Shown: positions 14,694 to 61,103, counted from the first letter of the stretch. The stretch: 64,000 nt of DNA from Pedococcus sp. 5OH_020 (GCF_027812955.1 NZ_JAPYZV010000012.1:1-64000); one strand, 5' to 3'. The notes: generated by a model not told the origin, from the letters alone. Translations and numbers: made by a program.

Positions 14694-15437
14694 ATGTCGG
14701 ACCTCGCTGGAAAGAACGTGCTCATCACTGGCGCCCTGGGCACGATCGGGCAGGCCCTGGTGGCTGGCTACGCGGCGGAGGGTGCGAATGTCATCGCCCT
14801 GGACCGGCCTGACGCCCCGAGCCCGCAGGAGACGCTCGACGCGGTCGCTAAGGGCGTGCGTTTCGTCGGCTGCGACCTCAACGACCTCACGCGGCTGGAG
14901 AAGCAGGCGACCGCGCTGGCCGAGGAGGTCGGCGGCATCGACGTGCTCGTGAACAACGCGGCGCTCGTGATCTTCAAGCAGCACACCGAGTTCACGATTG
15001 CGGAGTACGAGGACCAGGTGCGGGTCAACTCCTCCGCCGTGTTCGTCCTGTCCCGCGTCTGCTCCGAGGCGATGAAGAAGAAGCGTTACGGCAAGATCGT
15101 CAACATCACCTCTCTCACGCTGACCGGACGATGGGACGGCTACGTCCCCTACATCGCGTCCAAGGGAGCGATGTACGGCCTGATCAAGGGCATGGCACGC
15201 GAACTCGGCGCCAGCCTCATCAACGTCAACGGCATCTCCCCCGGCGCCGTCCTGTCCGAGGCCGAGTTCCGGGACCGGGGTGACCAGCGCGAGGAGTACC
15301 ACCAGTGGATCCTCGAGAACCAGAGCCTCAAGCGCCGGATCGAAGCCGTCGACATCGCAAACCTCGCGGTGTTCCTCTCGACGTCCAAGGCCGACCTCAT
15401 CACGGGCCAGAACATCCAGGTCGACGGCGGCTGGTAA
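14694..15437 (+). CDS. Short-chain dehydrogenase/reductase (SDR)
   Basis: A 247-residue classical SDR. The cofactor motif is TGALGTIG, the NNAA motif is present, the catalytic Ser is in NITSLTL, and Tyr-Lys are in YIASKGAMYG. The C-terminal GQNIQVDGGW closes the fold. The start has AAGGAG. It is the only rightward gene before 24471 and is divergent from the lipid operon. A GTCTGAC site upstream suggests common control with the acyl-CoA genes. It probably oxidises a hydroxy intermediate; the substrate is unknown. Confidence 0.88.
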   Translation: MSDLAGKNVLITGALGTIGQALVAGYAAEGANVIALDRPDAPSPQETLDAVAKGVRFVGCDLNDLTRLEKQATALAEEVGGIDVLVNNAALVIFKQHTEFTIAEYEDQVRVNSSAVFVLSRVCSEAMKKKRYGKIVNITSLTLTGRWDGYVPYIASKGAMYGLIKGMARELGASLINVNGISPGAVLSEAEFRDRGDQREEYHQWILENQSLKRRIEAVDIANLAVFLSTSKADLITGQNIQVDGGW

Positions 15438-15477
15438 GCGCCGCCAGGCAGGCTCCGGGACCGGAGCCTGGCCACGG

Positions 15478-16428
15478 CTACGCCTCTGAGGAGTACCAGT
15501 CGATGACGCTCCGCAGGCCCTGCTCGAGCGGAACGCCGTCGCCCATGCCCAGCACCTGGGCCATCCGCGTGCGGTCGGCCGCCTGGTAGCGGGTCCTGCT
15601 CTCGTGCCACACGAGCGACTCGGGATCGCCACCATAGAAGCCAACGAGGGTGGTGTAGATGCGCTCGGCCGTGACCGACTCCCCCACCACGTTGACGGCC
15701 AGGTCGACACGAGCGGAGTCGAGCGCGCGAACGCAGGCGAGCGCGACGTCGTCGACGTAGACGAGACCGTGCCTGGAGTCCCGCGTCCAAGGGACCTGCG
15801 GAGTCGAGTGCGTATCGAGGGCCTGGAGCACCTCGAGCATCGTCGCATTGTTCGAGCCCACGCTGACCCGAGGTCCATAGATGGTCCCGAACCGCAACGA
15901 GAGGTAGCTCGGACCTCCCGAGCCCGCGAACGCCTCGAGGTAGGCCTCCGCGGCGAGCTTGGTGGCGGCATACATGTTCAGCCCACGCCCGGTTCCGCCG
16001 GTCTCGGTCTCGCGGAAGGGGAAGCGGTCGGGATCCGCGAACGCCCCGTAGACCGTGTGAGAGGACCCGAAGACGAAGCGCTGGACACCGTGCCTGGCGG
16101 CTCCGGCAATCAGGTCGTAGGTGGCGTCGACGTTCACCTCGTGTGAGAGCCGACGGTTGGAGTCCGAGGACTTGGAGCGCACAGCAGCCAGGTGCACCAC
16201 GTGAGAGACACCCTCGAGCAGCCGATCGAGGGTGCTGGCGTCACGCAGGTCCGCACGCTCGAACTCCACCTCGGGGTGTGCGGCCAGCGTCGCCGAGCGC
16301 TCGTTCTCGACCACGTCCACGGCCCGGACCAGGCGGCCTGTCCCGGCAAGCATCTCGACCACCCTCGACCCGACGAAGCCAGCCCCGCCAGTCACCATCA
16401 CACGATCACGCACCGTCTCGCTCACCAC
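15478..16428 (-). CDS. NAD-dependent epimerase/dehydratase-family protein
   Basis: A 316-residue extended SDR. The N-terminal MVTGGAGFVGSRVVEML binds NAD, and the catalytic Tyr-Lys pair is in YAATKLAAE. GTG 16428 (a GTG-GTG pair) is the likely start, behind a GAGG-like site. It is the last gene of the minus-strand acyl-CoA operon, 94 bases beyond the MaoC gene. Extended SDRs act on nucleotide sugars or on hydroxy-ketone acids and steroids. In this setting a dehydrogenase of a CoA-linked or alicyclic intermediate is as likely as a sugar epimerase. Confidence 0.82.
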   Translation of the reverse strand: MVSETVRDRVMVTGGAGFVGSRVVEMLAGTGRLVRAVDVVENERSATLAAHPEVEFERADLRDASTLDRLLEGVSHVVHLAAVRSKSSDSNRRLSHEVNVDATYDLIAGAARHGVQRFVFGSSHTVYGAFADPDRFPFRETETGGTGRGLNMYAATKLAAEAYLEAFAGSGGPSYLSLRFGTIYGPRVSVGSNNATMLEVLQALDTHSTPQVPWTRDSRHGLVYVDDVALACVRALDSARVDLAVNVVGESVTAERIYTTLVGFYGGDPESLVWHESRTRYQAADRTRMAQVLGMGDGVPLEQGLRSVIDWYSSEA

Positions 16429-16522
16429 AGACCCTCTTCCTCGGTGCCTACCTCGCTGTCAGGTGGGCCGTTGCTGATATTCCTGTCCGCTCTTACTCTT
16501 CTGACATCCCGTGGAACGCCGT

Positions 16523-17506
16523 TCAGCCTGACGCGACGAGCACGACCGGTCGCCACGACAGGACCGGCGTCTCGGCCACCGAGGTGGTGACGTGCAGGTC
16601 CAGCGCAGCCAGGCCGTCGCCCACCTGCTGGGCGCCCTCGATGGAGACCGACGATGTCAGGTAGTCACCCTCCCGCACCGGCGACAGGTGGTCGCAGGCC
16701 TTCCACCCCGCGACCGTCACCAGGCCCGGGAACACTTGGCAGACGTGGTGGAACGCCAACCCGATCGAGTGGCCCCCGTAGACCAGGCGATCTCCTCCTC
16801 CGACCCGGCGGTCGTGGTGCACCAGGGCGCCGTTGCCGGTCAGCCGGGCAAGCTCGGGAGCGCTGGAGACGACGTCGCCCCCCACCACGTCATACGTTCC
16901 TCCGACCTCCCACGCGGCCCCTGAGGGGCGAGGCACGGCGCCGAGGTCCCACGCGGTCATGGAGAGCAGTGAGTCGCTGGGCGCCCATGCCCCGGAACCG
17001 GTGGACAGCTCGTCGGCGTATCCGGTGGGCCCGGCGTCGGGGGATAGCAGGATCATCGCGCAACGCCGGTAGTCGAGCACCAGCCGGTCCTCGTGGTCGA
17101 CGGTGGTAATCCGCAGCTCGGCCAAGCCAGTGCTCGGACGGCCCACCCGGCGGGTGTTCTCGCGAAGCCCCACGACGGTGGTCGTGGTGCGCAGCGTGTC
17201 GCCGAGGAGCGGCTGGCGGTGGAACCAGAGCCCGCGGTAGAAGAGGTTGGCCTTCACGTGCTGGGTGGCCACGGTCGACTGGCCGATGGAGACGTCCCAC
17301 ACCAGCGCCGGGCCGGCCAGCGGGCCGCCCGCCACGCGGTGCGCCAGCTCGTGGTCGAGGGCGAGTGACAGCCGGTTGCCCACGACTGCCGCGTGCGCGG
17401 CCTGCAGGCCCGAGGTCAGGGTGACGGCCGGAGGCTGTGTCAGGACCAACCCCGGCGTCAACTCGTCGAAGTAGGGTCCGCGCACCGCCGTGGTGTTCTC
17501 AGCCAT
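16523..17506 (-). CDS. MaoC-like double-hotdog dehydratase
   Basis: A 327-residue protein with two hotdog halves. The first contains GPLAGPALVWDVSIGQ and FYRGLWFHRQPLLGDTL. The second contains DRLVYGGHSIGLAFHH, whose GGH stretch marks the substrate site of MaoC/mesaconyl-CoA-hydratase-like proteins. It likely adds or removes water on an enoyl-CoA. ATG 17506 is chosen with GAGGGGGC upstream; a GTG at 17524 overlaps the CoA-transferase stop. It sits between a CoA transferase and the epimerase-like gene in the operon. Confidence 0.78.
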   Translation of the reverse strand: MAENTTAVRGPYFDELTPGLVLTQPPAVTLTSGLQAAHAAVVGNRLSLALDHELAHRVAGGPLAGPALVWDVSIGQSTVATQHVKANLFYRGLWFHRQPLLGDTLRTTTTVVGLRENTRRVGRPSTGLAELRITTVDHEDRLVLDYRRCAMILLSPDAGPTGYADELSTGSGAWAPSDSLLSMTAWDLGAVPRPSGAAWEVGGTYDVVGGDVVSSAPELARLTGNGALVHHDRRVGGGDRLVYGGHSIGLAFHHVCQVFPGLVTVAGWKACDHLSPVREGDYLTSSVSIEGAQQVGDGLAALDLHVTTSVAETPVLSWRPVVLVASG

Positions 17507-17520
17507 GTCCCCGCGCCCCC

Positions 17521-18741
17521 TCACACGATCCCGCTCGTCCGGAGGCGGCCGATCTCGGCGTCCGTCAGGCCCAGCAGCTCGCCGAGGACCGCCTCAGTGT
17601 CGGCCGACAGCACGGGCGCCGGACGCGCAGGGGGACTCACTTGGTTCCACCGCCAGGGAGCGGCGGCAGCCAGCATCGGCCCGATCCCCGGCTGGTCGAT
17701 CTGGCTCACGATGCCGTCCTCGGTGCGTCGGGCCTCACGGCCCACCTCCACCATGTCGCGGTATGGGCTCCACAGCACCTTGGCGTCGTCGAGCAGCCGC
17801 TCCAGGGTGGCGTAGTCCTTCCCCTCGAACCAGGGGCGCAGGATCGAGGCGATCGTCTCCCGCAGGCGGTACCGGTCTCCTTCCCGCCCGAGGTCCACCC
17901 CCAGCGTCTCTTCGAGGGCCGCGAACACCCGATCGGTGCTCGTGACCCGTCGCAGGGCGTTCCATTGACCCTCGGTGAGGGCCACGACCATGATCCGTTT
18001 GCCGTCAGCCGTCGCGAAGTCCACTCCGAAGCAGCCGAACATGTGGTTGCCGATCCGCGGCCGGGCGGACTGGCGCTCGTCTGCCTCAGCCAGCCATCCC
18101 ATTCCTGCGACTCCGGCCAGGGCAACGTCGGCCAACGCCACGTCGACCCGGGCCCCTTCGCCGGTGCGTTCGCGCCGAAACAGGGCGCTGGTCACGGCCG
18201 AGACCGTCAGCATTCCCGTGACGAGGTCCCACGCCGGCAGGACATGGTTGACCGGTACCCCCGTCTCGGCCGGACCGGTCATCAGGGGTACGCCCACCTC
18301 GGCGTTGATCGAGTAGTCGACCGCCGGCTTTCCGTTGCGCCGTCCCTCGACGTGGACGTGGATGACGTCCTCCCGCCGGGCGGCCAGCTCTTCGTACCGC
18401 AGCCGCCTGGCCCCCACGAGGTTGTCGATGAAGACGCCCCCTCCGGGTCCTGAGGCGACCACCAGCTCGAGGAGCAGCTCTCGCCCCTCGTCACGGCGGT
18501 GGTCGATCGTCACAGACCGCTTGCCCTTGTTGAGGTTGGCCCAGAACAAGCTGGCCCCCCCGCTGGAGAGGGGCCACCGACCCGCGTCGCTGCCGCCACC
18601 CGGCGGGTCCACCCGGACGACCTGCGCCCCGAGCTGGCTGAGGGCCATCCCCGCGGACGGAGCCGCGACGAACGAGCCGGCTTCGATGACGCGCACGCCG
18701 GCTAGGGGCCCCTCGACGGACTCGCCGGTCGGCAACGGCAT
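17521..18741 (-). CDS. Family III CoA transferase (CaiB/BaiF type), first copy
   Basis: A 406-residue enzyme of the formyl-CoA transferase family, which moves CoA between carboxylates through an aspartyl-CoA thioester. Typical segments are GVRVIEAGSFVAAPSAGMAL, DPPGGGSDAGRW and NLNKGKRSVTIDHRRDEGR. The expected catalytic Asp is in AVDYSINAEVG; the surrounding sequence departs from the usual GYDLIAQA of the copy at 20704, so this copy may use another substrate. ATG 18741 has a strong GGGAGGAG; a GTG at 18774 overlaps the upstream stop. It lies downstream of the acyl-CoA dehydrogenase. Confidence 0.85.
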   Translation of the reverse strand: MPLPTGESVEGPLAGVRVIEAGSFVAAPSAGMALSQLGAQVVRVDPPGGGSDAGRWPLSSGGASLFWANLNKGKRSVTIDHRRDEGRELLLELVVASGPGGGVFIDNLVGARRLRYEELAARREDVIHVHVEGRRNGKPAVDYSINAEVGVPLMTGPAETGVPVNHVLPAWDLVTGMLTVSAVTSALFRRERTGEGARVDVALADVALAGVAGMGWLAEADERQSARPRIGNHMFGCFGVDFATADGKRIMVVALTEGQWNALRRVTSTDRVFAALEETLGVDLGREGDRYRLRETIASILRPWFEGKDYATLERLLDDAKVLWSPYRDMVEVGREARRTEDGIVSQIDQPGIGPMLAAAAPWRWNQVSPPARPAPVLSADTEAVLGELLGLTDAEIGRLRTSGIV

Positions 18742-18770
18742 GACGTGCTCCTCCCGGGCTGGGTGAGTAC

Positions 18771-19940
18771 TCACCGAGCTGGGCGTCCAGCCTTTGCGGC
18801 CCCGTTGATGTCACGGGCGACGAGCACGCTCTGGATCTGGTTGGTCCCGTCGTAGATCTCGGCGATCTTGGCGTCACGCAGTCGGCGCTCGACGCCGACC
18901 GACACCTTGTCGCCGTCCATCCCGAGAAGCTCGACACAGGTTGCCGAGACGCGCGTCCCCAAGGCGGTGCAGTGCATCTTGACCAACGAGACCTCGGCGA
19001 CCGGCTCCTCGTCACTCGAGTCGACGGTGTCGCACACCGACATCAACATCGCGCGCGCCGACGTGATCTCGCCGCGCAGACGGGAGAGCTCGAACTGCAG
19101 ATCCTGGGCGGCGGAGGCGCGGGACGACAGCAGACCGCGCTCGGACGCCCAGGTCACCGTCGCGTCATACGCCCCTTCGGCGAAGCCCAGGCCCTGTGCT
19201 GCCGCACTGATCCGTGACCTCAAGACCGACTGCAGCAACAGCGGGTACCCGTCTCCCTCGGCGCCGAGACGGCTGGAGGCGGGAATGCGACAGTCCTGCA
19301 ACGCGAGAGTGACCGTTGACGCACCAGTCTGTCCGAGCTTCTTCATCGGTCGCCCGACGGTGAAACCCTCGAGACCCTCGGTCTCCACGAGGAAGGCGGT
19401 GACGCCGTGCTTGTCCTTCGCGAAGTCCACCGAGGCGAAGAGGACCACGACGTCGGCACGGTCGCCGTTGGAGATGAACGTCTTCTCGCCGCTGATCACG
19501 TAGTCGTCGCCGTCACGACGGGCCAGGGTGCGCATCGTCCCCACGTCGGAGCCGGCGCCCGGTTCGGTCAGAGCGATAGAGCCCACTGCAGTGCCGCTGC
19601 ACAGGCGGGGAACCCACTTCTCGACCTGCTCCGGCGAACCCTGCAGGTGGATGGGGTGGGCGCAGTGCATCTGCGTCATGTAGACCGTCGACGTGGAGCC
19701 GCACGCCGCGCTGATGCGGGCGAGCGCCTCGGCGTAGGTGGCGGTGCTCGTGTCGGCGCCACCCAAGGCACTCGGCATGAGCATGACGCCCAACCCCTCG
19801 CGTGCGAGTTCGGCAATCGCCTCGGCCGGGAAGGTGGCGTCTTCGTCCACGGTCGTCGCGAGCGGACGGATCGTGTGGTCGATGACGGCGTCGACGGCCT
19901 TGATGACAAGGGCGTCCACGGACGGCCATACGCGGGTCAT
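18771..19940 (-). CDS. Acyl-CoA dehydrogenase with Asp at the usual catalytic Glu
   Basis: A 389-residue flavoprotein that desaturates an acyl-CoA at alpha-beta. The N-terminal helical domain, the FAD-binding ALTEPGAGSDVG, and the segment YVISGEKTFISNGD are all normal. The C-terminal motif is EIYDGTNQIQS; in short- and medium-chain dehydrogenases it is usually YEGT, whose Glu abstracts the alpha proton, so this enzyme carries Asp there. The start overlaps the stop of the hydratase gene by four bases. It may work with the shorter dehydrogenase-like protein at 22643 or alone. Confidence 0.88.
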   Translation of the reverse strand: MTRVWPSVDALVIKAVDAVIDHTIRPLATTVDEDATFPAEAIAELAREGLGVMLMPSALGGADTSTATYAEALARISAACGSTSTVYMTQMHCAHPIHLQGSPEQVEKWVPRLCSGTAVGSIALTEPGAGSDVGTMRTLARRDGDDYVISGEKTFISNGDRADVVVLFASVDFAKDKHGVTAFLVETEGLEGFTVGRPMKKLGQTGASTVTLALQDCRIPASSRLGAEGDGYPLLLQSVLRSRISAAAQGLGFAEGAYDATVTWASERGLLSSRASAAQDLQFELSRLRGEITSARAMLMSVCDTVDSSDEEPVAEVSLVKMHCTALGTRVSATCVELLGMDGDKVSVGVERRLRDAKIAEIYDGTNQIQSVLVARDINGAAKAGRPAR

Positions 19941-20716
19941 GAGGACTCCTGGTGGAACTCGGGAGCGCGACGTTCGGCGAAGGAGGTGATGCCCTCCTGG
20001 CCGTCGCGCGAGGCGATCGAAAGGGCAGCGAGGGCCGCCTCGTGCTGCAGGGCTGCCGGCGCGATCGCCGGACGCGTGGCATCGAGGATGTTGGCGGTGC
20101 CAGTGCGACTTCCCCCGGCGATCAGCTCGGCGACTCGCAGGACCTCTGCCTGGTGGTCGTCGGGAGCCAGTGGTGGGACCGAGAGCAGCCCGACCTGCCA
20201 GGCTCGCTCGGCGTCGATGCGTTCGCCGGTCAGGAGCAGGTGCATGGCGGCTGGCTTGCCGACTGCCTGCGGGAGGCGCTGGGTGCCGCCGAACCCCGGT
20301 ATGCAGCCGATCCGCGCCTCTGGCAGCCCGAAGTGGCTGCGGTCGGAGGCGATCACGAGGTGGCAGGCGAGCGCGAGCTCGAACCCGCCACCCAGTGCGT
20401 AGCCGTCGACGGCGGCGATGACCGGGACGGCGGACGTCGCCACCGACGACATGGTGCGGTGCCCGGCACGGATGAACTCCTGTGCCCCCTCGACGCCCAG
20501 CCCTCGGATCTCGTCCAGGTCCGCGCCCGCGCTGAAGGCCTTGCCGCCCACGCCCCTGATCACGACGCACCCCACCGACGGATCGCCCTGGACCTCCAGG
20601 ATCGCCTCATGGAGAAGGCGGAGCACCTCCGAGTTCAACGCGTTGAGCTGGCGGGGGCGCGACAGCTCGATGGTGAGCACCCGGCCGGACCGAGTGCAGT
20701 CGATCACTGAAGCCAT
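19937..20716 (-). CDS. Enoyl-CoA hydratase (crotonase)
   Basis: A 259-residue crotonase that hydrates a 2-enoyl-CoA. Both catalytic glutamates are present: the first in GGGFELALACH and the second in LPEARIG, with IPGFGGTQRL after it. The oxyanion loop is AFSAGADLDEI. GAGGAG precedes the ATG, and the gene start overlaps the upstream CoA transferase by 13 bases. It supplies the hydration step after the adjacent acyl-CoA dehydrogenase. Confidence 0.9.
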   Translation of the reverse strand: MASVIDCTRSGRVLTIELSRPRQLNALNSEVLRLLHEAILEVQGDPSVGCVVIRGVGGKAFSAGADLDEIRGLGVEGAQEFIRAGHRTMSSVATSAVPVIAAVDGYALGGGFELALACHLVIASDRSHFGLPEARIGCIPGFGGTQRLPQAVGKPAAMHLLLTGERIDAERAWQVGLLSVPPLAPDDHQAEVLRVAELIAGGSRTGTANILDATRPAIAPAALQHEAALAALSIASRDGQEGITSFAERRAPEFHQESS

Positions 20717-21900
20717 ATGACATTCTCCTCGGCCAACTCGTCGATGCCCTCGTCCTGGAGCCCGATCTCACGGAGGATCTCGCGTCCGTGCTCGCCGCGA
20801 ACCGGGGCGGGGATGCGTGCCTGGCGATCCGCCGGGTCCGAGGCCAGGCGCCAGGGCGCACCGACCCCTCTGAAGACGCCGGCGACAGGATGCTGGTAGT
20901 CCACTATCGCGCCTCGGGCCACGACTTGCGGATCGGAGACCACCTCGGAGAGGTAGTTGATCTGCGCGCACGGCACCCCGACGTCCTGCAGCAGCTTGAG
21001 GGCGTCGGTGGACGAGAGCACCTCGAGGGTTCGTTGGATCTCCGCGACGACCTCCATCCGGTGGGCCCGGCGTCCGGCGTTCGTGCTGAGCTCCTCGCGC
21101 TCGGCGAGGTGGTCCAAACCCAGTGCAGCGCAGGCGCGCTGCCAGTGGTTGTCGTTGCCGAGGGCGATCACGATGGTGCGGTCGGCAGTCCTCATCGACT
21201 GGTAGATCGCCACGACGGAGTCCATCCCCCCACACGGGGAAGGTTCGGGCTCACCGGCCAGGAAGCTGGCAATGCGCGGCGACATCAGTGCGAGGTCCGC
21301 TTCCAGGAGAGCCACGTCTACCAGCTCGCCGGTGCCGGTCTGCTGCTGCCGGACGAGTGCCGCAGCGATGGCGAACGCCGCCACCGTGCCAGAGGCCACG
21401 TCGGACAGCGCTGTACTCACCCGCTGGGGCAGCCCGTCGTCACCGGTGACGCTCATCAGTCCGGAGCGGGCCTGGGCGATGAGGTCGTAGCCGGGGAGCC
21501 CGGCGTCCGGACCGTCCAGCCCGAATCCCGAGAACGCGCAGATGACGAGCTGCGGGAACCTCTCGCGAAGTGCGTCCAGCCCGAGGCCGTGCTTCTCGAG
21601 CTTGGTTGGAACGATGTTCTCGATGAACACGTCGGCGGTGGCCAGGAGCTCGAAGAGAACGTCTCGCCCGCGGTCGCTGCGCAGGTCGAGGCACAGGCTG
21701 CGCTTGTTGCGGTTGGCGGAGAGGAACCAGGCCGCCTCCCCGTTCAGGAACGGCGGGCCCCAGCCTCGGGCGTCGTCGCCGCGCAGGGGCTCGATCTTGA
21801 TGACGTCAGCACCCATGTCGGCGAGGTACATCGATGCGGTGGGGGCGGCGTAGGACGACGCAATGTCGATCACCCGCACGCCCTGAAGGGGGCCGCTCAT
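20704..21900 (-). CDS. Family III CoA transferase (CaiB/BaiF type), second copy
   Basis: A 398-residue CoA transferase. N-terminal GVRVIDIASSYAAP, NRNKRSLCLDLRSDRGR and the catalytic Asp segment GYDLIAQARSGLMSVTG match the formyl-CoA/carnitine CoA transferase family closely. It overlaps the FadR gene stop by four bases. It would activate the incoming acid by transferring CoA from a donor thioester, avoiding ATP use. With the copy at 17521 and two ATP-dependent ligases, the locus holds four possible activating enzymes. Confidence 0.9.
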   Translation of the reverse strand: MSGPLQGVRVIDIASSYAAPTASMYLADMGADVIKIEPLRGDDARGWGPPFLNGEAAWFLSANRNKRSLCLDLRSDRGRDVLFELLATADVFIENIVPTKLEKHGLGLDALRERFPQLVICAFSGFGLDGPDAGLPGYDLIAQARSGLMSVTGDDGLPQRVSTALSDVASGTVAAFAIAAALVRQQQTGTGELVDVALLEADLALMSPRIASFLAGEPEPSPCGGMDSVVAIYQSMRTADRTIVIALGNDNHWQRACAALGLDHLAEREELSTNAGRRAHRMEVVAEIQRTLEVLSSTDALKLLQDVGVPCAQINYLSEVVSDPQVVARGAIVDYQHPVAGVFRGVGAPWRLASDPADRQARIPAPVRGEHGREILREIGLQDEGIDELAEENVIWLQ

Positions 21901-22646
21901 TCTTGAACCCCGTCCCGTCCTTCGCTGGAATACCTGAGGACGTACTCGAGGTGCCGGTCCATCGCCTCCGCGGCGTCACTGGCCGAGCCACCACGAATGG
22001 CGCTCACGATGGCGATGTGCTGCTTCACCGTCTCCCGACCCACCTCCGGTGTCACCCCGAGGAACCTGGCGGGCAGCGTGGTCTTGTGGATGGCGGAGAT
22101 GAACGCCGAAAGGAGGCGGTTGCCGGAGGCCTCGGAGATGGTGACGTGGAAGTCGCGGTCGTACGCGACGATCCGGGGATCGTCGATCGTGGTCGTCCGT
22201 TGCCGCTCGACGATCTCGGTCAGCGCCGAAACGTGTCGGTCCTCACGGTTGCATGCTGCCCAGGACGCCGCGGGCACCTCCAGCACGCGCCGCATGGCGG
22301 TGAGCTCGTCGATATCGAGAGAGCCCAGTCGCACGATGGTGTCCATGGACTCGCTCAGCATCGAGCTGAGCGAGTCCGGCGTGACGCTGTGGACGAAGCT
22401 GCCGCCGGCGACACCTGGGACCTTCCGGATCAGCCCCGCAGCGACCAGAGACCCGAGGGCCTCGCGCACCGTCGGCCGACTGACCCCGAACTGCCGTGCG
22501 AGCTCGGTCTCTGGCGGAAGCTTGTCGCCCTGCTGGAAGTCGCCGCGCAGGATGGCTTCCCGGATCTGGTGTTCGACTTGTGCTCGCGGCCGAAGGATCC
22601 GCTTGGCCAGGAACTGCTGCTCCGCCATGCCCTTTCCCGCACTCAT
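21897..22646 (-). CDS. FadR-type GntR regulator (FCD domain), internal to operon
   Basis: A 249-residue transcription factor. The winged helix is at residues about 20-85 (LPPETELARQFGVSRPTVRE), followed by a seven-helix FCD ligand domain with conserved His and Asp/Arg residues (YDRDFHVTISEASGNRLL). It is encoded within the degradation operon, overlapping both neighbours by four bases, so it should respond to a pathway acid or acyl-CoA and autoregulate. A close paralog is at 36032-36760; both share the phrase TPDSLSxMLSESMDTIVR. FadR-type proteins bind GTnnnAC palindromes, which recur in this locus. Confidence 0.9.
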   Translation of the reverse strand: MSAGKGMAEQQFLAKRILRPRAQVEHQIREAILRGDFQQGDKLPPETELARQFGVSRPTVREALGSLVAAGLIRKVPGVAGGSFVHSVTPDSLSSMLSESMDTIVRLGSLDIDELTAMRRVLEVPAASWAACNREDRHVSALTEIVERQRTTTIDDPRIVAYDRDFHVTISEASGNRLLSAFISAIHKTTLPARFLGVTPEVGRETVKQHIAIVSAIRGGSASDAAEAMDRHLEYVLRYSSEGRDGVQE

Positions 22647-24339: not shown

Positions 24340-24379
24340 ATTTCAGCCCTCCCCCTGGCCACGGTCAGGCGATTGACGA

Positions 24380-24417
24380 TTGGTAAAATTCTTACAGAAG
24401 CGTACATTGTCTTACAG
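24380..24417 (+). promoter_or_regulatory. Promoter/operator between BadI-like operon and hydroxyacyl-CoA dehydrogenase
   Basis: On the plus strand TTGGTA (24380-24385), 17 bases, TACATT (24403-24408) form a plausible promoter for the gene at 24471. CTTACAG occurs twice, at 24391-24397 and 24411-24417, 20 bases apart (about two helical turns). The second copy overlaps TGTCTTACA, which fits TGTnnnACA. Its reverse complement, CTGTAAGACAATGT, closely matches CTGTAGGACAATAT at 35951 upstream of the second FadR gene. Probable binding region for one FadR paralog controlling both directions. Confidence 0.5.
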
Positions 24418-24470
24418 GCATCTTCAAGGCGAGGTCGCGTGCGGAAGCGGCACTGACGAGGGAACACGAC

Positions 24471-25958: not shown

Positions 25959-26033
25959 CCACCCAGTGACCGCTACGCGGCCGGACCACCGAGCTCGCCT
26001 GCGGTATGCCGGGCGCTCACCACAGCGTGCCCG

Positions 26034-26837
26034 TCAGGTGCGACGGGCGCGCGCCTGCGCGTAGCGTTCCATGACGTCGAGGATCCGTGAGCGCACCTCG
26101 GGGCGAGCAATGAGGTCGATATTGGCGGCAAGGCTCTCATCCAAGGCGGCGTGAAGCTCCACCGTCGACGCCGCGCGAGCAATCCCCTTGGCGCGGGCGA
26201 ACGTGGCGATCGGACCGGACGTCATCTCGAGGGCGACCTCGTGGGCGCGCTCCGCAAGGGCTTCGTCCTCGCAGACCTCCGTGACCATGCCGAGCCGGAG
26301 CGCCTCCTGGGCATCGATGAAGGCACCTGACGCGAACATCCTTGTCGCCGCAGGCAGCCCGACCAGCTTCGGGAGCAGGTAGGCACCGCCCGCCACGGGC
26401 ACCATACCCAGGTTGACGTAGCTCTCGGCGAACCGGGCGCTGCGAGCGGCCAGACGGACGTCGCAGGACAGACCGAAGTCCAGGCCCCCCGCCGTCGCCG
26501 CGCCGTTGTATGCGGCGATGACCGGCTTGGGTGCGGCCCACAGCAGGCGCACGAAGCGCTGGACGGCAGGCATCCAGGTTTCGCCGAGGTAGTCCATCAG
26601 GCCGTCCGGCCCCTGGGACGTGTGGATCTCGAACATGTCCTTCACGTCTGCGCCGGCGCAGAAGACAGAGCCGGTGCCGGTCAGCACCACCGCGCCGACC
26701 TCACCCGTTTCGACGAGAGACTGCACCGTGTCACCCAGACGTTCGACGACTTCGGGCGTCACCGAGTTGCCTCGTTCCGGCCGGTTGAACCGGACCGTGC
26801 CGACTCCCTCGCGTGTCCCTACGACGATGTCATCCAC
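26034..26837 (-). CDS. Enoyl-CoA hydratase/isomerase family protein
   Basis: A 267-residue crotonase. The oxyanion loop is FCAGADVKDM. The first catalytic Glu is replaced (AGGLDFGLSCD) and the second position is not Glu (AESYVNLGMVPVAGG). That pattern is closer to PaaG/ECI-type isomerases than to hydratases. It is last in the minus-strand operon that begins at 33252, and its start overlaps the ligase stop by eight bases. It converges on the dehydrogenase at 25958, with a 75-base gap. A double-bond isomerase role is inferred. Confidence 0.83.
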   Translation of the reverse strand: MDDIVVGTREGVGTVRFNRPERGNSVTPEVVERLGDTVQSLVETGEVGAVVLTGTGSVFCAGADVKDMFEIHTSQGPDGLMDYLGETWMPAVQRFVRLLWAAPKPVIAAYNGAATAGGLDFGLSCDVRLAARSARFAESYVNLGMVPVAGGAYLLPKLVGLPAATRMFASGAFIDAQEALRLGMVTEVCEDEALAERAHEVALEMTSGPIATFARAKGIARAASTVELHAALDESLAANIDLIARPEVRSRILDVMERYAQARARRT

Positions 26838-28449: not shown

Positions 28450-28451
28450 GG

Positions 28452-29231
28452 TTAGACCTGTCCGAAGCCGACCGGCATCGTCGCGAGCGACAGCCCACCG
28501 TCCACCACGATGGTCTGGCCATTGATCGCGGCGCTGGCCGGCGAGACGAGGTAGGCCATGACGTCCGCCACCTCGTCGGGGGTGGGATAGGCGCCGGACG
28601 GGGTCTGCGCCAGCCACTGCTTGGCGTAGTCGTCCCACGCCTCTCCGGCGTAGTAGCGGAACGAGTCCGTGTCGATCGGCCCCGGGCAGACCCCGACGGT
28701 GGTGATCTTGTCCTTCGCGAGCTCGATGGCGAGATACTTCACGAGCGTCTCCATCGCAGCCTTCGCGGCACCAAGCAGGCCGTGGCCGGGAAGCACCCGG
28801 AAACTGTCCCACCCTGACACCGCCATCACCCGGCCGCCGTCGTTCATGTACGGAGTGGCCAGCCGGACGAGGTCCAGGAACCCCTGCACGGTGAGGCTCA
28901 TGGTCTTCTCGATGTGCCGGCTGTGGATGTCGGAGAGCGGCTTGAAGGCGCTCGCCGCAGCATTGGCCACGACGACGTCGAGGCTCCCGAAGCGCTCGAC
29001 CGACTGGGCCACGAGCGACTCCACCTCGTCGGTCTCGGCGACATCGGCCTGGACCGCGAACGCGACACCTCCCAGCGACTCGATCTGGGCGACGGTGTCC
29101 ATCGCCGCGTCCTTGTCGCGTCGGTAGTTGACGATCACGTTGGCCTGCTGAGCTCCCAGCTTCAGGGCGAGACGCTGCCCCATCCCGCGCGAGCCACCGG
29201 TGATGATGACCGTCCTGTTCTGCATGCTCAT
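28452..29231 (-). CDS. SDR of enoyl-reductase (FabL-like) type lacking the usual Tyr
   Basis: A 259-residue SDR. TGGSRGMGQ binds the nucleotide and VDGGLSL closes the sheet. The catalytic region reads RVLPGHGLLGAAKAAMETL: the Lys is present but the Tyr four residues before it is Leu. FabL-type enoyl reductases use a Tyr seven residues before Lys, and that position here is His. The flanking sequence (ALVKYLAIEL-like and GPIDTDSF) resembles FabL. It may reduce an enoyl-CoA by an unusual mechanism, or be inactive. GAGGG precedes the ATG. Confidence 0.8.
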   Translation of the reverse strand: MSMQNRTVIITGGSRGMGQRLALKLGAQQANVIVNYRRDKDAAMDTVAQIESLGGVAFAVQADVAETDEVESLVAQSVERFGSLDVVVANAAASAFKPLSDIHSRHIEKTMSLTVQGFLDLVRLATPYMNDGGRVMAVSGWDSFRVLPGHGLLGAAKAAMETLVKYLAIELAKDKITTVGVCPGPIDTDSFRYYAGEAWDDYAKQWLAQTPSGAYPTPDEVADVMAYLVSPASAAINGQTIVVDGGLSLATMPVGFGQV

Positions 29232-29243
29232 GGCCTTACCCTC

Positions 29244-29290
29244 GTCTGTTGTCCGGTCGTTGTCTGTTGTCCGGTCGTCTGTTGTCCGGT
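29244..29290. repeat. Three-copy short repeat GTCTGTTGTCCGGT
   Basis: The 14-base unit occurs exactly at 29244-29257, 29262-29275 and 29277-29290, with 4- and 1-base spacers. It fills most of the 93-base gap between two SDR genes of one operon. It could vary in copy number by slippage, or bind a protein. It contains no obvious promoter. Confidence 0.85.
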
Positions 29291-29324
29291 GGTCATGCTT
29301 GGTTGCCGCGGGCCGCGGTCGGGG

Positions 29325-30080
29325 TCAGGAGCTCATGGTGAGCCCACCGCCGACGCAGAGCGTCTGTCCGGTGACGTAGCTCGCCGCGTCAGAGGACAGG
29401 AACTCGATCGCGGCGGCGATCTCGGAGGGCTCCCCCGCTCGGCGCAGTGGAATGGCGCGGACCACGCTCGACAGCAGCTCCTCGCCCCCCTGGCTCTCCA
29501 GGAGCGGGGTCTGGGTCACGCCCGGGGCGACGACGTTCACGCGGATCCCGAAGCGGGCCCACTCGCGAGCCAGGGCTTTGGCCAAGGTCACGACACCGGC
29601 CTTCGCCGCGGAGTACACGGCCTCCCCCGACTGCCCCGCCACGCCGGCCTCGGAACTGGTCAGCACGATGCTGCCGCCGCTGTCCTTCATGACCCGGCCT
29701 GCCGCCGCTGACAGGTGGATCGCCGACATCAGGTTGACGTCGATGATCCGCCGCCAGTAGTCGGGCGTCTCATCGAGGAAGCGGGTGATCGCTGTCCACC
29801 CCACGGTCGACACCACGCGGTCGACGGAACCGAGCTGGGCGACGGCCTCCTGCAGCAACCGGTCGCAGGCGTCCGGGTCGGTCGCGTCCCAGCCGGCGTC
29901 GCCCGCGACGACGATGTGCTCGTGCTGGGCCGCGAGCTGGCGAGGCCCGGAAGGGTCGAGGTCGGCGGCGACGGTCCGGATGCCCCGGCTCGCGAACAGC
30001 TCCGCGACGGCGAGGCCGATTCCGGAGCCGGCGCCCACCACTAGGGCGGTCGAGGGTCGGTCGGGGTTTGCGTCTGTCAT
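29325..30080 (-). CDS. Short-chain dehydrogenase/reductase (SDR)
   Basis: A 251-residue classical SDR with VVGAGSGIG, catalytic Ser in VLTSSEAG and Tyr-Lys in AVYSAAKAGV. C-terminal GQTLCVGGGLTMSS. ATG 30080 is preferred over 30104 because AGGAG lies six bases upstream. It is in the operon between the repeat-containing gap and the carboxymuconolactone decarboxylase-like gene. Likely a hydroxy-to-keto oxidation of a CoA-linked intermediate. Confidence 0.87.
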   Translation of the reverse strand: MTDANPDRPSTALVVGAGSGIGLAVAELFASRGIRTVAADLDPSGPRQLAAQHEHIVVAGDAGWDATDPDACDRLLQEAVAQLGSVDRVVSTVGWTAITRFLDETPDYWRRIIDVNLMSAIHLSAAAGRVMKDSGGSIVLTSSEAGVAGQSGEAVYSAAKAGVVTLAKALAREWARFGIRVNVVAPGVTQTPLLESQGGEELLSSVVRAIPLRRAGEPSEIAAAIEFLSSDAASYVTGQTLCVGGGLTMSS

Positions 30081-30106
30081 GTCAGGCTCCTGATCCTGCG
30101 CCATGC

Positions 30107-30442
30107 TCAGCTGAGTTCGTCATGCAGCCACGCCAGCGCCTCAACGACCGGCACGAGCCCGAGGCTGGTCCCCAGCAGCAGGATCACGACCTGCTCGATC
30201 TCTGCGATCGTCGCCCCGCTGTCCTGGGCACGGGTGCAGTGGACGCGGAAGCCACCCTCGTTCCTCGTCGCGGCAAAACCAGTCAGCAGGGTGAGCTCGC
30301 GCTGCTTGGCGTCGAGAGGTCCGTGGGCGTCGGCGGCCACACGGATACCCCGAAAGGCCGTGGCGACGTCCGGTGCCGTGGCGCGAAGCCGGTCGACGAA
30401 CGAGACGAACTCGTCCTGCTTGCTCAGCGGGTAGTCGAACAT
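30107..30442 (-). CDS. Carboxymuconolactone decarboxylase/AhpD-family protein
   Basis: A 111-residue all-helical protein. The motif FRVHCTRAQDSGATIAEIEQ, with Cys and a downstream Gly-Ala-Thr, is typical of this family. It lacks the CxxC of peroxidase-active AhpD, so it is unlikely to be a disulfide reductase. ATG 30442 overlaps the upstream racemase-like stop by one base (TGATG). Members often sit in ring-degradation operons; here the reaction is not known. Confidence 0.8.
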   Translation of the reverse strand: MFDYPLSKQDEFVSFVDRLRATAPDVATAFRGIRVAADAHGPLDAKQRELTLLTGFAATRNEGGFRVHCTRAQDSGATIAEIEQVVILLLGTSLGLVPVVEALAWLHDELS

Positions 30443-31278
30443 CACTGCTCCTGCTCGGTCGGGTGGGTTGCGTCTGCCAGGCGGCCGAGCGCGGGAAGCC
30501 GGTAGGCCTCGGAGTACTCGCCGCCCGCGGCAGCGATGGAGGCCTCGGGAGCCCTGGCGTAGAGGCGACGCCGGCTGACGAAGGTGCCGGTCTGCCGCCG
30601 GATGCGGACGGCGGCCTCGGTCGCCGCCAGGAGCGACACGGTCCCGTCGACCAGCGGCGCCCCATCCACCTCTCGAATGCCGTGGGCGTTGAGGAAGGCG
30701 GTGAGGCGACCCCCCGCCGGGATCACTACCTCCGCGCCCTTGGCCAGCGAGGCACGCGCGGCCTCCTCGAAGGAGGCGATGGCCTTGCCGCGCTGGTCGG
30801 GGTCGGAGAAGCAGGCGTCCAGCTCGTGCGGGGTCAGGCCCATGCACTCGATACTCGCGAGCCGTTCGCGCAGGCCGTACTTCGCGACGTTCTCCTCAAA
30901 GCGACCTCCGAAGTAGGGGTTGACGCCCACGAGCGAGAAGGTGCTGCCCATCATGCAGGAGGTGAGCATCGAGGTCTCGCCGAGACCCAGCACGGGTATG
31001 TCCACCATGGAGCGCGCCTCCCGGAGGGCGGGGTCCAGGATGTTCCCGATCGCGACGGCGTCGTACCCCTCGAGCTCGGCCTCGAGGACCGAGTCGAGGA
31101 TGGAGATCCAGTCGAGCGTCTCGAAGAACCGAAAACTGTCGATGCGCCCGACACGCGTGCCCCGCAGTTCGACAGTCGTGTCCGCCGACTTGATCTCGTC
31201 GAGGTAGGAGCGGAGGAAGGGAAAGTAGTTCGGCGAGTACTTCTCGCGGGACATGCTCAGGTAGAGGATGCGGGTCAT
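30442..31278 (-). CDS. Asp/Glu/hydantoin racemase-like protein without the usual cysteine pair
   Basis: A 278-residue protein with the overall pattern of Asp/Glu or hydantoin racemases: MTRILYLSMSREK, NILDPALREARSM, DIPVLGLGETSML. The two catalytic Cys of the family would fall in AIGNILDPAL (Asn-Ile here) and VVIPAGGRL (Ala-Gly here), so both seem absent. The only nearby Cys is in TSCMMG. ATG 31278 sits just after the thiolase stop (TGAGATG). It may be an isomerase of a different mechanism, or a decarboxylase- or lyase-like relative. Confidence 0.7.
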   Translation of the reverse strand: MTRILYLSMSREKYSPNYFPFLRSYLDEIKSADTTVELRGTRVGRIDSFRFFETLDWISILDSVLEAELEGYDAVAIGNILDPALREARSMVDIPVLGLGETSMLTSCMMGSTFSLVGVNPYFGGRFEENVAKYGLRERLASIECMGLTPHELDACFSDPDQRGKAIASFEEAARASLAKGAEVVIPAGGRLTAFLNAHGIREVDGAPLVDGTVSLLAATEAAVRIRRQTGTFVSRRRLYARAPEASIAAAGGEYSEAYRLPALGRLADATHPTEQEQ

Positions 31279-31279
31279 C

Positions 31280-32494
31280 TCAGGCCACCCGCTCGAAGAT
31301 GGCGGCGAGGCCCTGTCCGCCACCCATGCACATCATCTCCATGCCGTAGCGTCCCTGCCGCCGGTCCAGCTCACGCAGCAGGTTGGCCAGGATTCGACCG
31401 CCCGTGGCACCGATCGGGTGGCCCAGCGAGATCCCGGAGCCGTTCACGTTGACCCGCTCGAGGTCGGACGGGCTCAGCTCCCAGCCGCGGAAGCACCCGA
31501 TCACCTGCGCCGCGAAAGCCTCGTTCAGCTCGATCAGGTCGATGTCGGCCCACGACAGTCCGGCCAGCTTCAGCGCCTTCTGCGCCGCCGGGACAGGTCC
31601 GATGCCCATCATCCGTGGCTCGACGCCCGCCAGCGACCAGGTCACGAGGCGCGCGAGTGGTCGCAGCCCCAGTGCCTCGGCCTTGGCTGGGGTCGTCACG
31701 ATCGCCACGGCCGCGGCGTCGTTCTGGCCACTCGCGTTGCCGGCGGTGACCGTCGCGCTGGGACGCTGCCGCGACATCATCGGCTTCAGCCGCGCCAGGC
31801 TCTCCATCGTGGTGCCCGGGCGGGGGTGCTCGTCACGGGTGATGGTGAGGGGGTCTCCCTTGCGCTGCGGCACGGTGACGGGGATGGTCTCGTCGTCGAA
31901 GAGTCCTGCCTCGATGGCGGAGACCGCGCGGGCGTGTGAGCGCACCGCCCACTCGTCCTGCTCCTCGCGCGAGACCCCGAACTCGCTGGCGACGTTCTCG
32001 GCGGTCTCGATCATCCCGCCCTCGACCGGGAACCGGTGACCGCCGGAGTTGTGTCGGGGTCGGGCGAGGCGATCCAGCAGCTTCGGCGCCCCGCCGGAGT
32101 TCCAGCGCATGCCGGGCACGTAGTACTCGGCCTGGCTCATGCTCTCGGCCCCGCCCGCGAGGACCAGCTCTGACCCACCGGTAGCCACCTGCATACAGGC
32201 ATAGAGCACGGACTGAAGACCCGAGCCGCATCGCCGGTCGATCTGCAGGCCCGGGACGGTGATGTCCAGGCCGGCGTCGAGCGCGGCGATCCGTCCGATC
32301 GCCGCGGCCTCGCCGTTCGGGTAACCCTGCCCGAAGATGACGTCGTCGACGTCCTCAGACCTGATGCCGGTGCGCTCGACCAACCCCTTGACGACCGTTG
32401 CCGCGAGCTCGGTCACCGGCACGTCCTTGAACATGCCGCCGTACCGTCCCACCGGTGTCCTGACCGGCTCGCAGATGACTGCTTCCACCATCAT
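31280..32494 (-). CDS. Acetyl-CoA acyltransferase (thiolase)
   Basis: A 404-residue degradative thiolase. The nucleophilic Cys lies in DRRCGSGLQSV, the NEAFAAQ motif is present, the His is in GHPIGATGGR and the second Cys in MCMGGGQG. GGGAGA precedes the ATG. It cleaves the 3-ketoacyl-CoA formed by the hydroxyacyl-CoA dehydrogenase. It is second in the operon starting at 33252. Confidence 0.93.
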   Translation of the reverse strand: MMVEAVICEPVRTPVGRYGGMFKDVPVTELAATVVKGLVERTGIRSEDVDDVIFGQGYPNGEAAAIGRIAALDAGLDITVPGLQIDRRCGSGLQSVLYACMQVATGGSELVLAGGAESMSQAEYYVPGMRWNSGGAPKLLDRLARPRHNSGGHRFPVEGGMIETAENVASEFGVSREEQDEWAVRSHARAVSAIEAGLFDDETIPVTVPQRKGDPLTITRDEHPRPGTTMESLARLKPMMSRQRPSATVTAGNASGQNDAAAVAIVTTPAKAEALGLRPLARLVTWSLAGVEPRMMGIGPVPAAQKALKLAGLSWADIDLIELNEAFAAQVIGCFRGWELSPSDLERVNVNGSGISLGHPIGATGGRILANLLRELDRRQGRYGMEMMCMGGGQGLAAIFERVA

Positions 32495-32508
32495 GTGTCT
32501 CCCGTGTC

Positions 32509-33252
32509 CTAGACGCTCGACTCGCCACCGTCGACCGCGATGGTCTGCCCGGTCAGGAAGTCGGGCGCGTGCAGGGCGAGGTACGTCACGATGTTGGCCA
32601 GCTCGTCGGGGGTCCCCATGCGGTAGGCGGGAATCCGACGCAGCACCTTCGCCATGGCGCTCTGGTCCTCGCGCAGCTCGGCGTTGATGTCAGTGGCGAA
32701 GTAGCCGGGGGCCACGGCGTTCATCTGGGCTCCGAAGCGCGCCCACTCGGCCCCTACCGAGCGCGTGAAGTTCACGACCGCACCCTTCGAGGCGCAGTAG
32801 GCCGAGAAGCCGGGCCTGCCGAGGAGTCCGAACACCGACGCGACGTTGACAGCGCGCCCAGAGCCCGTCTGGGCGAATCGACGGCCCGCCTCGCGGCTGC
32901 ACAGGAACATGCCCCGCACGTTCGTGTCGAAGATGCGATCCCACTCGGCCTCGTCGAGGTCGACGAGGTTCACCTGACCGGTGACCCCGGCGTTGTTGAC
33001 GAGGACGTCCACCCCGCCGAGCTGGGTCACCGCGACATCGAAGAGCTCGGCGACGGACTCGGCGCTGGTGACGTCGGTCTGCTTGACCAGTGCGACGCCT
33101 CCCGCGGACTCAATGAGCCGTTGCGTGACCTCCAGCGGTTCCAGCGAGCGACCGGCCAGCACGACGCTCACGCCCGCTGCCGCGATGTCGCGGGCGATCG
33201 CCTCGCCGAGTCCTCTTCCCGCACCCGTTACGACGGCCACCCGATTGGACAT
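32509..33252 (-). CDS. Short-chain dehydrogenase/reductase (SDR), leaderless start
   Basis: A 247-residue classical SDR: TGAGRGLG, NNAGV, Ser in VASVFG, Tyr-Lys in YCASKGAVV, and GQTIAVDGGES. The frame is open far upstream, but the family N-terminus MSNRVAVVTGAG fixes ATG 33252. No ribosome-binding site precedes it; the -10 box ends six bases before the ATG, so the mRNA should begin at the start codon. It is first in an eight-gene minus-strand operon (SDR, thiolase, racemase-like, CMD-like, SDR, SDR, ligase, crotonase). Confidence 0.88.
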   Translation of the reverse strand: MSNRVAVVTGAGRGLGEAIARDIAAAGVSVVLAGRSLEPLEVTQRLIESAGGVALVKQTDVTSAESVAELFDVAVTQLGGVDVLVNNAGVTGQVNLVDLDEAEWDRIFDTNVRGMFLCSREAGRRFAQTGSGRAVNVASVFGLLGRPGFSAYCASKGAVVNFTRSVGAEWARFGAQMNAVAPGYFATDINAELREDQSAMAKVLRRIPAYRMGTPDELANIVTYLALHAPDFLTGQTIAVDGGESSV

Positions 33253-35960: not shown

Positions 35961-36031
35961 ATATGGGTACATCCACGTCTGTAAGAGCCCGACGGGCACA
36001 CACCGCTCGCGCCACCCGAGGAGACACCCCC

Positions 36032-61094: not shown

Positions 61095-61103
61095 GGGATG
61101 CCG

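Follow-up and report, generated by a model that had tools for sequence, protein, structure and literature searches.

Ring-opening pathways have been described for cyclohexane- or cyclopentanecarboxylate (bad-ali in Rhodopseudomonas palustris and Aromatoleum sp. CIB; chcpca in Rhodococcus aetherivorans BCP1) and for steroid rings C and D (HIP degradation) (PMC9795900, PMC5906575, PMC4591350, PMC5380842; papers cited by PMC number are drawn on in excerpt throughout). Further systems of interest are the Mct enzyme and mesaconyl-CoA hydratase of the 3-hydroxypropionate bicycle of Chloroflexus and the itaconate/methylsuccinate clusters of Pseudomonas and Cupriavidus necator. Here, we analyze a gene cluster, whose closest homologs are in actinobacteria, in a stretch of 64,000 nucleotides (the window, to which all coordinates refer) from the 4.43-Mb genome of Pedococcus sp. 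5OH_020 (G000:C3). A first-pass annotation had placed at 14694-33252 a candidate pathway for a ring acid with BadI-type ring opening. We think it somewhat probable that the cluster is a GntR-controlled catabolic regulon of about 3.6 to 38 kb that degrades an alicyclic acid by hydrolytic ring opening and disposes of a methyl-branched product via mesaconyl-CoA. What was computed is the gene content, the separate clade of the hydrolase, the retention of its catalytic residues, the conservation of its neighbors, and the operator-like sites that the gene runs have in common.

The putative hydrolase heads the crotonase operon, eight minus-strand genes that overlap end to start between 24339 and 16523 (several gene starts, here and below, are taken from profile matches rather than from the longest open reading frame).

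23569..24339, minus strand: BadI/MenB-type crotonase (P0001), first gene of the operon, proposed ring-opening hydrolase (scored on TIGR01929, PRK07396, and TIGR03210)
22643..23572, minus strand: short acyl-CoA dehydrogenase-like protein, C-terminal domain only (PF00441 at residues 175-299)
21897..22646, minus strand: FadR/NanR-type GntR regulator within the operon (PRK03837, 125 bits, cut-off 260)
20704..21900, minus strand: family-III CoA transferase, succinyl-CoA:dicarboxylate type (NF052585, 312 bits, cut-off 750; PDB 9br6, 263 bits)
19937..20716, minus strand: enoyl-CoA hydratase, crotonase family (profile match; homolog in 74 of 80 loci)
18771..~19940, minus strand: full-length acyl-CoA dehydrogenase, start inferred (NF042972, 253.5 bits; NF043006, cyclohexane-1-carbonyl-CoA dehydrogenase, 195.6 bits; both below cut-off)
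17521..18774, minus strand: Mct-like CoA transferase (P0003), proposed mesaconyl-CoA C1-C4 transfer (PDB 8apq and 7xkg; TIGR04253)
16523..17524, minus strand: double hotdog protein (P0002), mesaconyl-CoA hydratase-like (2bi0/Rv0216, 287 bits; 8hgn, 60 bits)

The crotonase fits neither MenB nor BadI and is in a separate clade. It missed the cut-offs of the MenB models (TIGR01929, 229.8 bits against 342.7; PRK07396, 248 against 380) and of the BadI model (TIGR03210, 200.3 against 467.6), and a separate MenB elsewhere in the genome scored 416 bits on TIGR01929 (cut-off 343). From 153 crotonase sequences cut out, 120 were taken into a tree, including 10 hand-picked MenB rows, and removal of 9 duplicates left 111 rows. 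The window crotonase and 89 relatives formed one clade with support of 100/100; the 10 MenB rows formed their own group at 100/100 apart from it, and 3 BadI rows (two over the cut-off, one at 461) likewise formed a 100/100 group outside it. The 90 clade rows entered the tree because they are related to the window protein, which leaves the exclusion of MenB, BadI, and chc-type sequences as the informative outcome; because the tree program flagged long branches, the order among the MenB, BadI, chc-type, and window groups is not to be trusted. Moreover, a BadI model search of 14 genomes found BadI over the cut-off in two, Xanthobacter aminoxidans (479 bits) and a Marinobacter metagenome-assembled genome (MAG; 467.9 bits against 467.6), and each of these also holds a member of the new clade. 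Thus, the BadI/MenB-type crotonase that the first-pass annotation read at this position is there, its identity with BadI is given up, and the tree placement that it had proposed among BadI, MenB, and EchA20 sequences came out as a position outside MenB and BadI, in a tree that held no EchA20.

S135 and D137 are invariant throughout the 90 clade rows and equally in the rows of BadI, chc-type, and MenB proteins, and Y230 is found in 98% of clade rows and in the three BadI rows, with another residue at that column in MenB. We take S135, D137, and Y230 to be the catalytic Ser/Asp/Tyr of BadI-type enzymes. F61, Y86, R127, W143, E146, R220, H223, and D224 are kept in 99-100% of the clade and are different in BadI, and the positively charged among these clade-specific residues might bind a second carboxylate.

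The company that the crotonase keeps also sets it apart. A scan of named genomes confirmed 177 relatives, and neighbors were counted at 80 of these loci (two of which, L046 and L047, are near-identical clusters) and at 12 hand-picked control regions (3 BadI, 4 chc-type, and 5 MenB). A homolog of the CaiB-type CoA transferase was found in 74 of the 80 loci versus none of the BadI, two of the chc-type, and none of the MenB regions. Among the 80, a hydratase was found in 74, a 3-hydroxyacyl-CoA dehydrogenase in 72, an acyl-CoA dehydrogenase in 68, an SDR in 68, and a ligase in 56. No CaiB, hydratase, acyl-CoA dehydrogenase, or 3-hydroxyacyl-CoA dehydrogenase homolog was found at the five MenB regions; a hydratase was found at two of three BadI and two of four chc-type regions, and an acyl-CoA dehydrogenase at one of three and one of four. 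The relatives span Actinomycetota and Pseudomonadota, and some are on plasmids. A search of 198 genomes of the order found matches in 35 at an E value of ≤1e-40, 41-45% identical apart from the window protein itself, and no crotonase match in the other three members of the genus among those genomes; a search of the phylum (396 genomes, at most 6 candidates scored in each) found matches at 1e-60 in 3 genomes, the window's own included. Most of the cluster is retained, to a degree beyond chance, in Modestobacter sp. Leaf380 (L040), Rhodococcoides fascians A44A (L041), and Tsukamurella sp. PLM1 (L042), with identities of 82-86% for the crotonase and about 50-84% for other members (the Rhodococcoides and Tsukamurella comparison regions end before the thiolase). 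Gene order in at least one of these three and Kribbella adds neighbors from outside 14694-33252, namely, an aldehyde dehydrogenase, a citramalyl-lyase-like protein, an alcohol dehydrogenase, and an ABC transporter.

Operator-like sites point the same way. The crotonase promoters of L040, L041, L043, and L045 have a TGTNNGACA-type palindrome in common, and that of L042 has it with one mismatch. An operator model, TGTC(A/T)GACA, was made as a weight matrix from 10 sites of 5 other loci, with no site from the window. Its nine best positions in the window are 35009, 24408, 35952, 14638, 33263, 5286, 5197, 47630, and 38091, and all except 47630 are upstream of island genes, given inferred starts. 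Four of the sites are as follows.

24408..24416, minus strand: operator-like site, crotonase/3-hydroxyacyl-CoA dehydrogenase promoter (weight matrix)
33263..33271, plus strand: operator-like site upstream of the SDR-thiolase-ligase run (weight matrix)
35009..35017, plus strand: operator-like site upstream of an aldehyde dehydrogenase (weight matrix)
35952..35960, plus strand: operator-like site in the gap that separates a second GntR-like gene from the inferred start of the lyase (weight matrix)

The units led by such sites are two aldehyde dehydrogenases, the crotonase with the 3-hydroxyacyl-CoA dehydrogenase, the lyase with the second GntR-like gene, and three SDR-led units that include the thiolase-ligase run; operons with such sites include the operon of the Mct-like gene and the citramalyl-CoA-lyase-like gene. 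Scores at ranks 2 to 6 exceeded those of all 60 first-order Markov null sequences, and a longer pattern, drawn up after the window site was known, was found 7 times against 1.8 expected. The GntR protein presumably binds these sites. Together with the conserved gene order, they extend the system to about 3.6-38 kb, and the borders first drawn at 14694-33252 were too narrow. Beside the crotonase operon, the system would comprise a divergent gene, a second minus-strand run from 33252 to 26034 (the eight genes from SDR to second hydratase below), and outlying genes.

24471..25958, plus strand: fused 3-hydroxyacyl-CoA dehydrogenase, divergently oriented to the crotonase gene (PRK08268, 520 bits, above the cut-off of 508)
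32509..33252, minus strand: SDR dehydrogenase that leads the thiolase-ligase run (profile match and neighbor comparison)
31280..32494, minus strand: thiolase (PRK06205, 667 bits, over cut-off 551)
30442..31278, minus strand: Asp/Glu racemase-family protein, start inferred, without the two catalytic cysteines (Asp_Glu_race, 72.8 bits)
30107..30442, minus strand: carboxymuconolactone decarboxylase (CMD)-family protein, start inferred (PF02627, 27.4 bits, over cut-off 23; 71-78% in L040-L042)
29325..30104, minus strand: SDR dehydrogenase, subthreshold BadH match (TIGR03206, 179 bits, cut-off 431)
28452..29231, minus strand: SDR dehydrogenase (profile match and neighbor comparison)
26830..~28455, minus strand: AMP-dependent acyl-CoA ligase, start inferred (PRK06187, 296 bits, below cut-off 476; 70-72% in L040-L042)
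26034..26837, minus strand: second enoyl-CoA hydratase, crotonase family (68-75% in L040-L042)
33390..34841, minus strand: aldehyde dehydrogenase (PF00171, 481 bits)
35043..35873, minus strand: HpcH/HpaI lyase, citramalyl-CoA lyase (RipC)-like, start inferred (NF038242, 150 bits, cut-off 375; PDB 9nzb, 169 bits)
35963..36760, plus strand: second GntR-like regulator beside the lyase (open reading frame, named by reading the sequence rather than by profile)
37294..38061, minus strand: SDR dehydrogenase, operator-like site upstream at 38091 (profile match)
3610..5052, minus strand: aldehyde dehydrogenase, start inferred from profile match (59% homolog inside the R. fascians cluster, L041; operator-like sites 5197 and 5286 upstream)
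14694..15437, plus strand: SDR dehydrogenase, operator-like site upstream at 14638 (profile match)
15478..16428, minus strand: NAD-dependent epimerase/dehydratase-like protein (two further genomes have homologs close to the cluster, 52% in L041 and 55% in L042)
40886..45910, minus strand: ABC transporter (ATPase-permease, binding protein, permease), membership unsure (a conserved neighbor of the cluster in Kribbella and R. fascians)

The gene set that the first-pass annotation read in 14694-33252 is real and mostly as described. Its two CoA transferases are the family-III proteins at 20704-21900 and 17521-18774, its two dehydrogenases are the full-length protein at 18771-~19940 and the short, C-terminal-domain-only protein at 22643-23572, and its hydration, hydroxyacyl oxidation, and thiolase functions are matched by two crotonase-family hydratases and by proteins over the cut-offs of PRK08268 and PRK06205. 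Its MaoC enzyme is the double hotdog protein, which was without Pfam or NCBIfam match and was recognized solely via solved structures (2bi0). The claim of two ligases is not confirmed: a single AMP-dependent ligase was found in the range (26830-~28455), and a further AMP-binding gene at 9985-11592 is outside. The racemase-like protein keeps its family assignment, but a working racemase is not supported. Asp/Glu racemases rely on two catalytic cysteines, and at neither site was a cysteine found in the rows of the window, L040, L041, Sagittula, and R. erythropolis. Cysteine-less homologs, 34-35% identical, are found in clusters with a ligase and a thiolase on plasmids of Sagittula stellata and Rhodococcus erythropolis, and the Ancylobacter counterpart is a different, AMDase-like protein; plasmid matches of the racemase-like protein, the ligase, and one SDR are distant, with none above 41% among the rows listed. 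The short dehydrogenase scored 52 bits on the IpdE2 model (cut-off 450), solved dehydrogenases align with it over the C-terminal part only, and it is possibly a partner of the full-length dehydrogenase.

How the opened ring is disposed of is suggested by proteins that go beyond the first-pass annotation: a citramalyl-lyase-like gene was added, one of the CoA transferases resembles Mct, and the MaoC-type protein resembles mesaconyl-CoA hydratase. The Mct-like protein scored 377 and 375 bits against solved mesaconyl-CoA C1-C4 transferases (8apq and 7xkg) and 379 bits on the model of Mct, 2-methylfumaryl-CoA isomerase (TIGR04253), missing the cut-off of 725. It retains Asp165, Arg47, and Tyr136, counted by hand on the alignment to 8apq, which are named as Mct residues (PMC9813914). 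The hotdog protein, a relative of Rv0216, matches beta-methylmalyl-CoA dehydratase (8hgn) more weakly and has N-x-A-x-V-H-x-D and YGGH stretches in common with it. The lyase missed the cut-off of the RipC model; its homologs adjoin the hotdog gene in R. fascians and Tsukamurella, and those next to the hotdog gene in L161 and L162 are 46-52% identical. In Tsukamurella, the copy of the hotdog gene (G585:C1:1339748-1340722) has one in-frame TGA, and no plasmid matches were found for the hotdog protein.

From these parts, a modified beta-oxidation with a hydrolytic BadI-type step can be proposed, as the first-pass annotation had it, and we rate the cluster as a new form of alicyclic-acid beta-oxidation with hydrolytic ring opening. 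The substrate is probably an alicyclic acid with a methyl group, perhaps with a second carboxylate. SDR and aldehyde dehydrogenases would bring it to the level of the acid, and the ligase and/or the succinyl-CoA:dicarboxylate-type CoA transferase would form the CoA ester. The acyl-CoA dehydrogenase, perhaps with its short partner, would then give a ring enoyl-CoA, a crotonase would hydrate it, and an SDR or the 3-hydroxyacyl-CoA dehydrogenase would make the cyclic beta-keto thioester, each role being that of the family. The BadI/MenB-type crotonase may hydrolyze the ring C-C bond in a retro-Dieckmann reaction, as its conserved Ser/Asp/Tyr suggests, and the open-chain dicarboxyl-CoA would be shortened via beta-oxidation and thiolase. 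By established chemistry, one round of beta-oxidation on an opened methylated ring can leave methylsuccinyl-CoA with the CoA on C1. Such a methyl-branched C5 dicarboxyl-CoA could be cleaved by the Mct-like, mesaconyl-CoA-hydratase-like, and citramalyl-CoA-lyase-like proteins, to end in acetyl-CoA and pyruvate or in glyoxylate and propionyl-CoA: either the C1 ester would be dehydrogenated, the CoA moved to C4, and the product hydrated and cleaved to acetyl-CoA and pyruvate, or the C1 ester would be hydrated and cleaved to glyoxylate and propionyl-CoA. A methylcyclopentane ring is the best fit to this end module, and a methylcyclohexane ring with an HMG-type end is a possible alternative.

Several observations weigh against this reading. 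The evidence that the gene runs form one regulon is good but not blind, because the plain TGTNNGACA core is not enriched in the window (8 found against 7.4 expected), Tsukamurella L042 has no exact copy of it, and the training sites were chosen by eye near promoters, with the remaining TGTNNGACA matches in those loci excluded. The top operator score was attained in 2 of the 60 null sequences, and for some window sites, the upstream position depends on a gene start that is later than that of the longest open reading frame. The ABC transporter is of the sugar/nucleoside type, unexpected for a hydrophobic ring acid, and none of the nine best sites is at its promoter. In the end module, Leu or Ile at position 43 is reported to be conserved in intramolecular Mct enzymes (PMC9813914) and the Mct-like protein has Ser; the module is outside the widespread core, as, by best-match assignment, only three of the 80 loci (L040, L041, and L042) have an Mct-like gene close to the hydrolase; no lyase homolog was found beside the Modestobacter cluster, the two matches in that genome being on other contigs, and no hotdog homolog was found in Kribbella. 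The CaiB homolog is absent from 6 of the 80 loci, some of which are on short contigs. At a Xanthobacter aminoxidans locus (L171), a dehydrogenase (72%) and a CoA transferase (59%) related to the core set accompany a chc-type hydrolase, which looks like a swap of the hydrolase; together with CaiB in two of four chc-type regions, this locus implies that neighbors and hydrolase type are exchangeable. Finally, nearly all curated equivalog cut-offs were missed by the cluster proteins.

The alternative that survives best, although we judge it unlikely, is a divergent bad-ali/chcpca pathway for cyclohexane- or cyclopentanecarboxylate in which the crotonase is functionally BadI. Such a pathway would have the same reaction logic and the same catalytic Ser/Asp/Tyr, both ring acids induce the Rhodococcus chcpca genes (PMC5906575), the CaiB homolog occurs at two of four chc-type loci, and the ligase of a Streptomyces plasmid version is AliA-like, its top-scoring model being that of cyclohexanecarboxylate-CoA ligase (435 bits against a cut-off of 792). 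The separate clade speaks against it, as do the over-cut-off BadI that occurs alongside it in two of the 14 genomes searched, including a MAG, the CaiB count of 74 of 80 loci versus 0 of 3 BadI loci, and clade-specific residues such as R127, W143, E146, R220, H223, and D224. Plain membership in the BadI/chcpca group was ruled out by the tree, the coexistence with BadI, and the neighbor counts. We also dropped the idea that an Asp base in the dehydrogenase points to ring substrates: a pattern-based count found Asp in 43 of 76 homologs, and two printed proteobacterial dehydrogenases read WEGT, which is invisible to the pattern.

Less likely again is an acyclic substrate, a branched dicarboxylate like methylsuccinate, itaconate, or mesaconate, with the BadI-type crotonase hydrolyzing an open-chain beta-keto thioester. 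The Mct-, mesaconyl-hydratase-, and citramalyl-lyase-like proteins and the dicarboxylate-type CoA transferase would suit it, and itaconate/methylsuccinate clusters are known, but those in the excerpted study are three- or five-gene sets (PMC12290011). Moreover, the ring-type core is present without the Mct/hotdog/lyase module in most relatives, and MenB, BadI, and EchA20 set a family precedent of closing or opening rings (PMC5380842). Degradation of steroid rings C and D of the KstR2 type, with the crotonase as EchA20, is very improbable: EchA20 is a MenB-like ring hydrolase (PMC5380842) and the short dehydrogenase weakly matches the IpdE2 model, but no IpdAB- or IpdC-type family was among the matches listed, 25 at most per list, for the scanned island proteins, which is why we hold it unlikely, and the operon regulator is GntR; five fetched IpdA-like stretches held no relative of the window crotonase at an E value of 1e-5. 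Ordinary menaquinone biosynthesis deserves next to no credence and is largely refuted, for while MenB models outscore BadI and the ligase matches the MenE model (216 bits, below the cut-off of 330, and not its best match), the missed cut-off, the genome's other MenB, and the 10 MenB rows standing apart rule out MenB identity, and the conserved neighbors are beta-oxidation enzymes. A grouping with MenB was the first half of what the first-pass annotation had said would overturn it, and that half fails because the crotonase is outside MenB and a separate above-cut-off MenB is in the genome.

The alicyclic-acid regulon that we favor suggests a wider proposal, which we regard as doubtful: the 90-row clade may be an uncharacterized hydrolase family that, paired with a dicarboxylate CoA transferase, opens the rings of alicyclic acids bearing a second carboxylate, and the window lineage may take a methylated, possibly plant-terpenoid-derived ring, with iridoid-like methylcyclopentane acids as a fitting example, to mesaconyl-CoA by intramolecular CoA transfer, a biological route from ring acids to methylsuccinyl/mesaconyl-CoA. 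Dozens of species have the clade crotonase next to this gene set, in several cases on a plasmid, and most of the annotated plasmid records examined call it only "enoyl-CoA hydratase-related protein." If the favored reading is right, a single enzyme assay would be enough to assign a function to this crotonase clade of dozens of actinobacterial and proteobacterial species, and the pathway would be one source of methylsuccinate, which may be abundant in soils according to a 2025 study (PMC12290011). In the open-license PMC literature, as excerpted, we found no description of this gene set, jasmonate, monoterpene, and naphthenic-acid work included; CaiB and BadI are never named together in that literature, and Ancylobacter ZM13 yielded nothing usable there as a clue to the substrate.

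We note some variation around the cluster. A reduced version in L034, L125, L074, and L085 (Rhodococcus opacus, Streptomyces, and Pseudonocardia) keeps CoA transferases, hydratase, 3-hydroxyacyl-CoA dehydrogenase, and crotonase and has an MFS transporter, a DgcA-like protein, and a class I CoA-transferase pair that is glutaconate CoA-transferase- or IpdAB-like; when the R. opacus pair was scored as IpdAB, the glutaconate CoA-transferase model was higher. In four proteobacterial loci (L120, L099, L101, and L090), a homolog of type II 3-dehydroquinate dehydratase is in the vicinity of the core genes. Part of the cluster is on a contig titled as a Rhodococcus MAG (L045) that the tree tool labels Cyanobacteriota, a clash that implies that the bin or the label may be wrong. 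Downstream of the island in the window, at 58569-62909, are genes for an AbrB-family protein, a TrkA_N-domain protein, and a class II aldolase, which may form a sugar-acid module of their own.

The gene set is distinct from chcpca and, as the first-pass annotation had claimed, from bad-ali. The locus is like bad-ali in its ligase, acyl-CoA dehydrogenase, hydratase, SDR dehydrogenase, and crotonase-type ring hydrolase, but the hydrolase is of another clade, CoA transferases, a fused 3-hydroxyacyl-CoA dehydrogenase, and the Mct/hotdog/lyase module are added, and the regulator is GntR, whereas bad-ali is regulated by the MarR-type BadR (PMC9795900). The cut-offs of three bad-ali models were missed by the window proteins (AliB, TIGR03207, 139 bits, cut-off 575; BadH, 179, cut-off 431; BadI, 200, cut-off 468); the AliA model was not among the 25 ligase matches listed, and no dedicated BadK model was met. 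The chcpca system is likewise aerobic, actinobacterial, and based on beta-oxidation of ring acids, with a BadI homolog annotated as MenB, but the published BCP1 gene table, as excerpted, has TetR regulators and no CoA transferase (PMC5906575); proteins of the order labeled chc-type are 41-44% identical to the window crotonase, with the BCP1 protein itself outside the comparison. In HIP degradation (EchA20/IpdAB), a MenB-like crotonase also opens a ring by retro-Dieckmann hydrolysis (PMC5380842), but no IpdAB, IpdC, or KstR2 was among the matches listed for the window proteins. The Chloroflexus bicycle offers relatives of the Mct-like and hotdog proteins, which are adjacent in the window and share a putative regulon with a CoA-ester lyase; in contrast to that system, the window Mct-like protein is below the curated cut-off and has Ser for Leu43, the hydratase is nearer Rv0216, and the lyase is CitE/RipC-like. 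Finally, the itaconate/methylsuccinate cluster has a citramalyl-CoA lyase-type end step in common with the locus and differs, in the excerpted account, in having its own CoA transferase, an MmgE/PrpD isomerase, and a dehydrogenase. Methylsuccinyl-C1-CoA is described as a dead end in Cupriavidus necator (PMC12290011), and a Mct-type step would avoid it.

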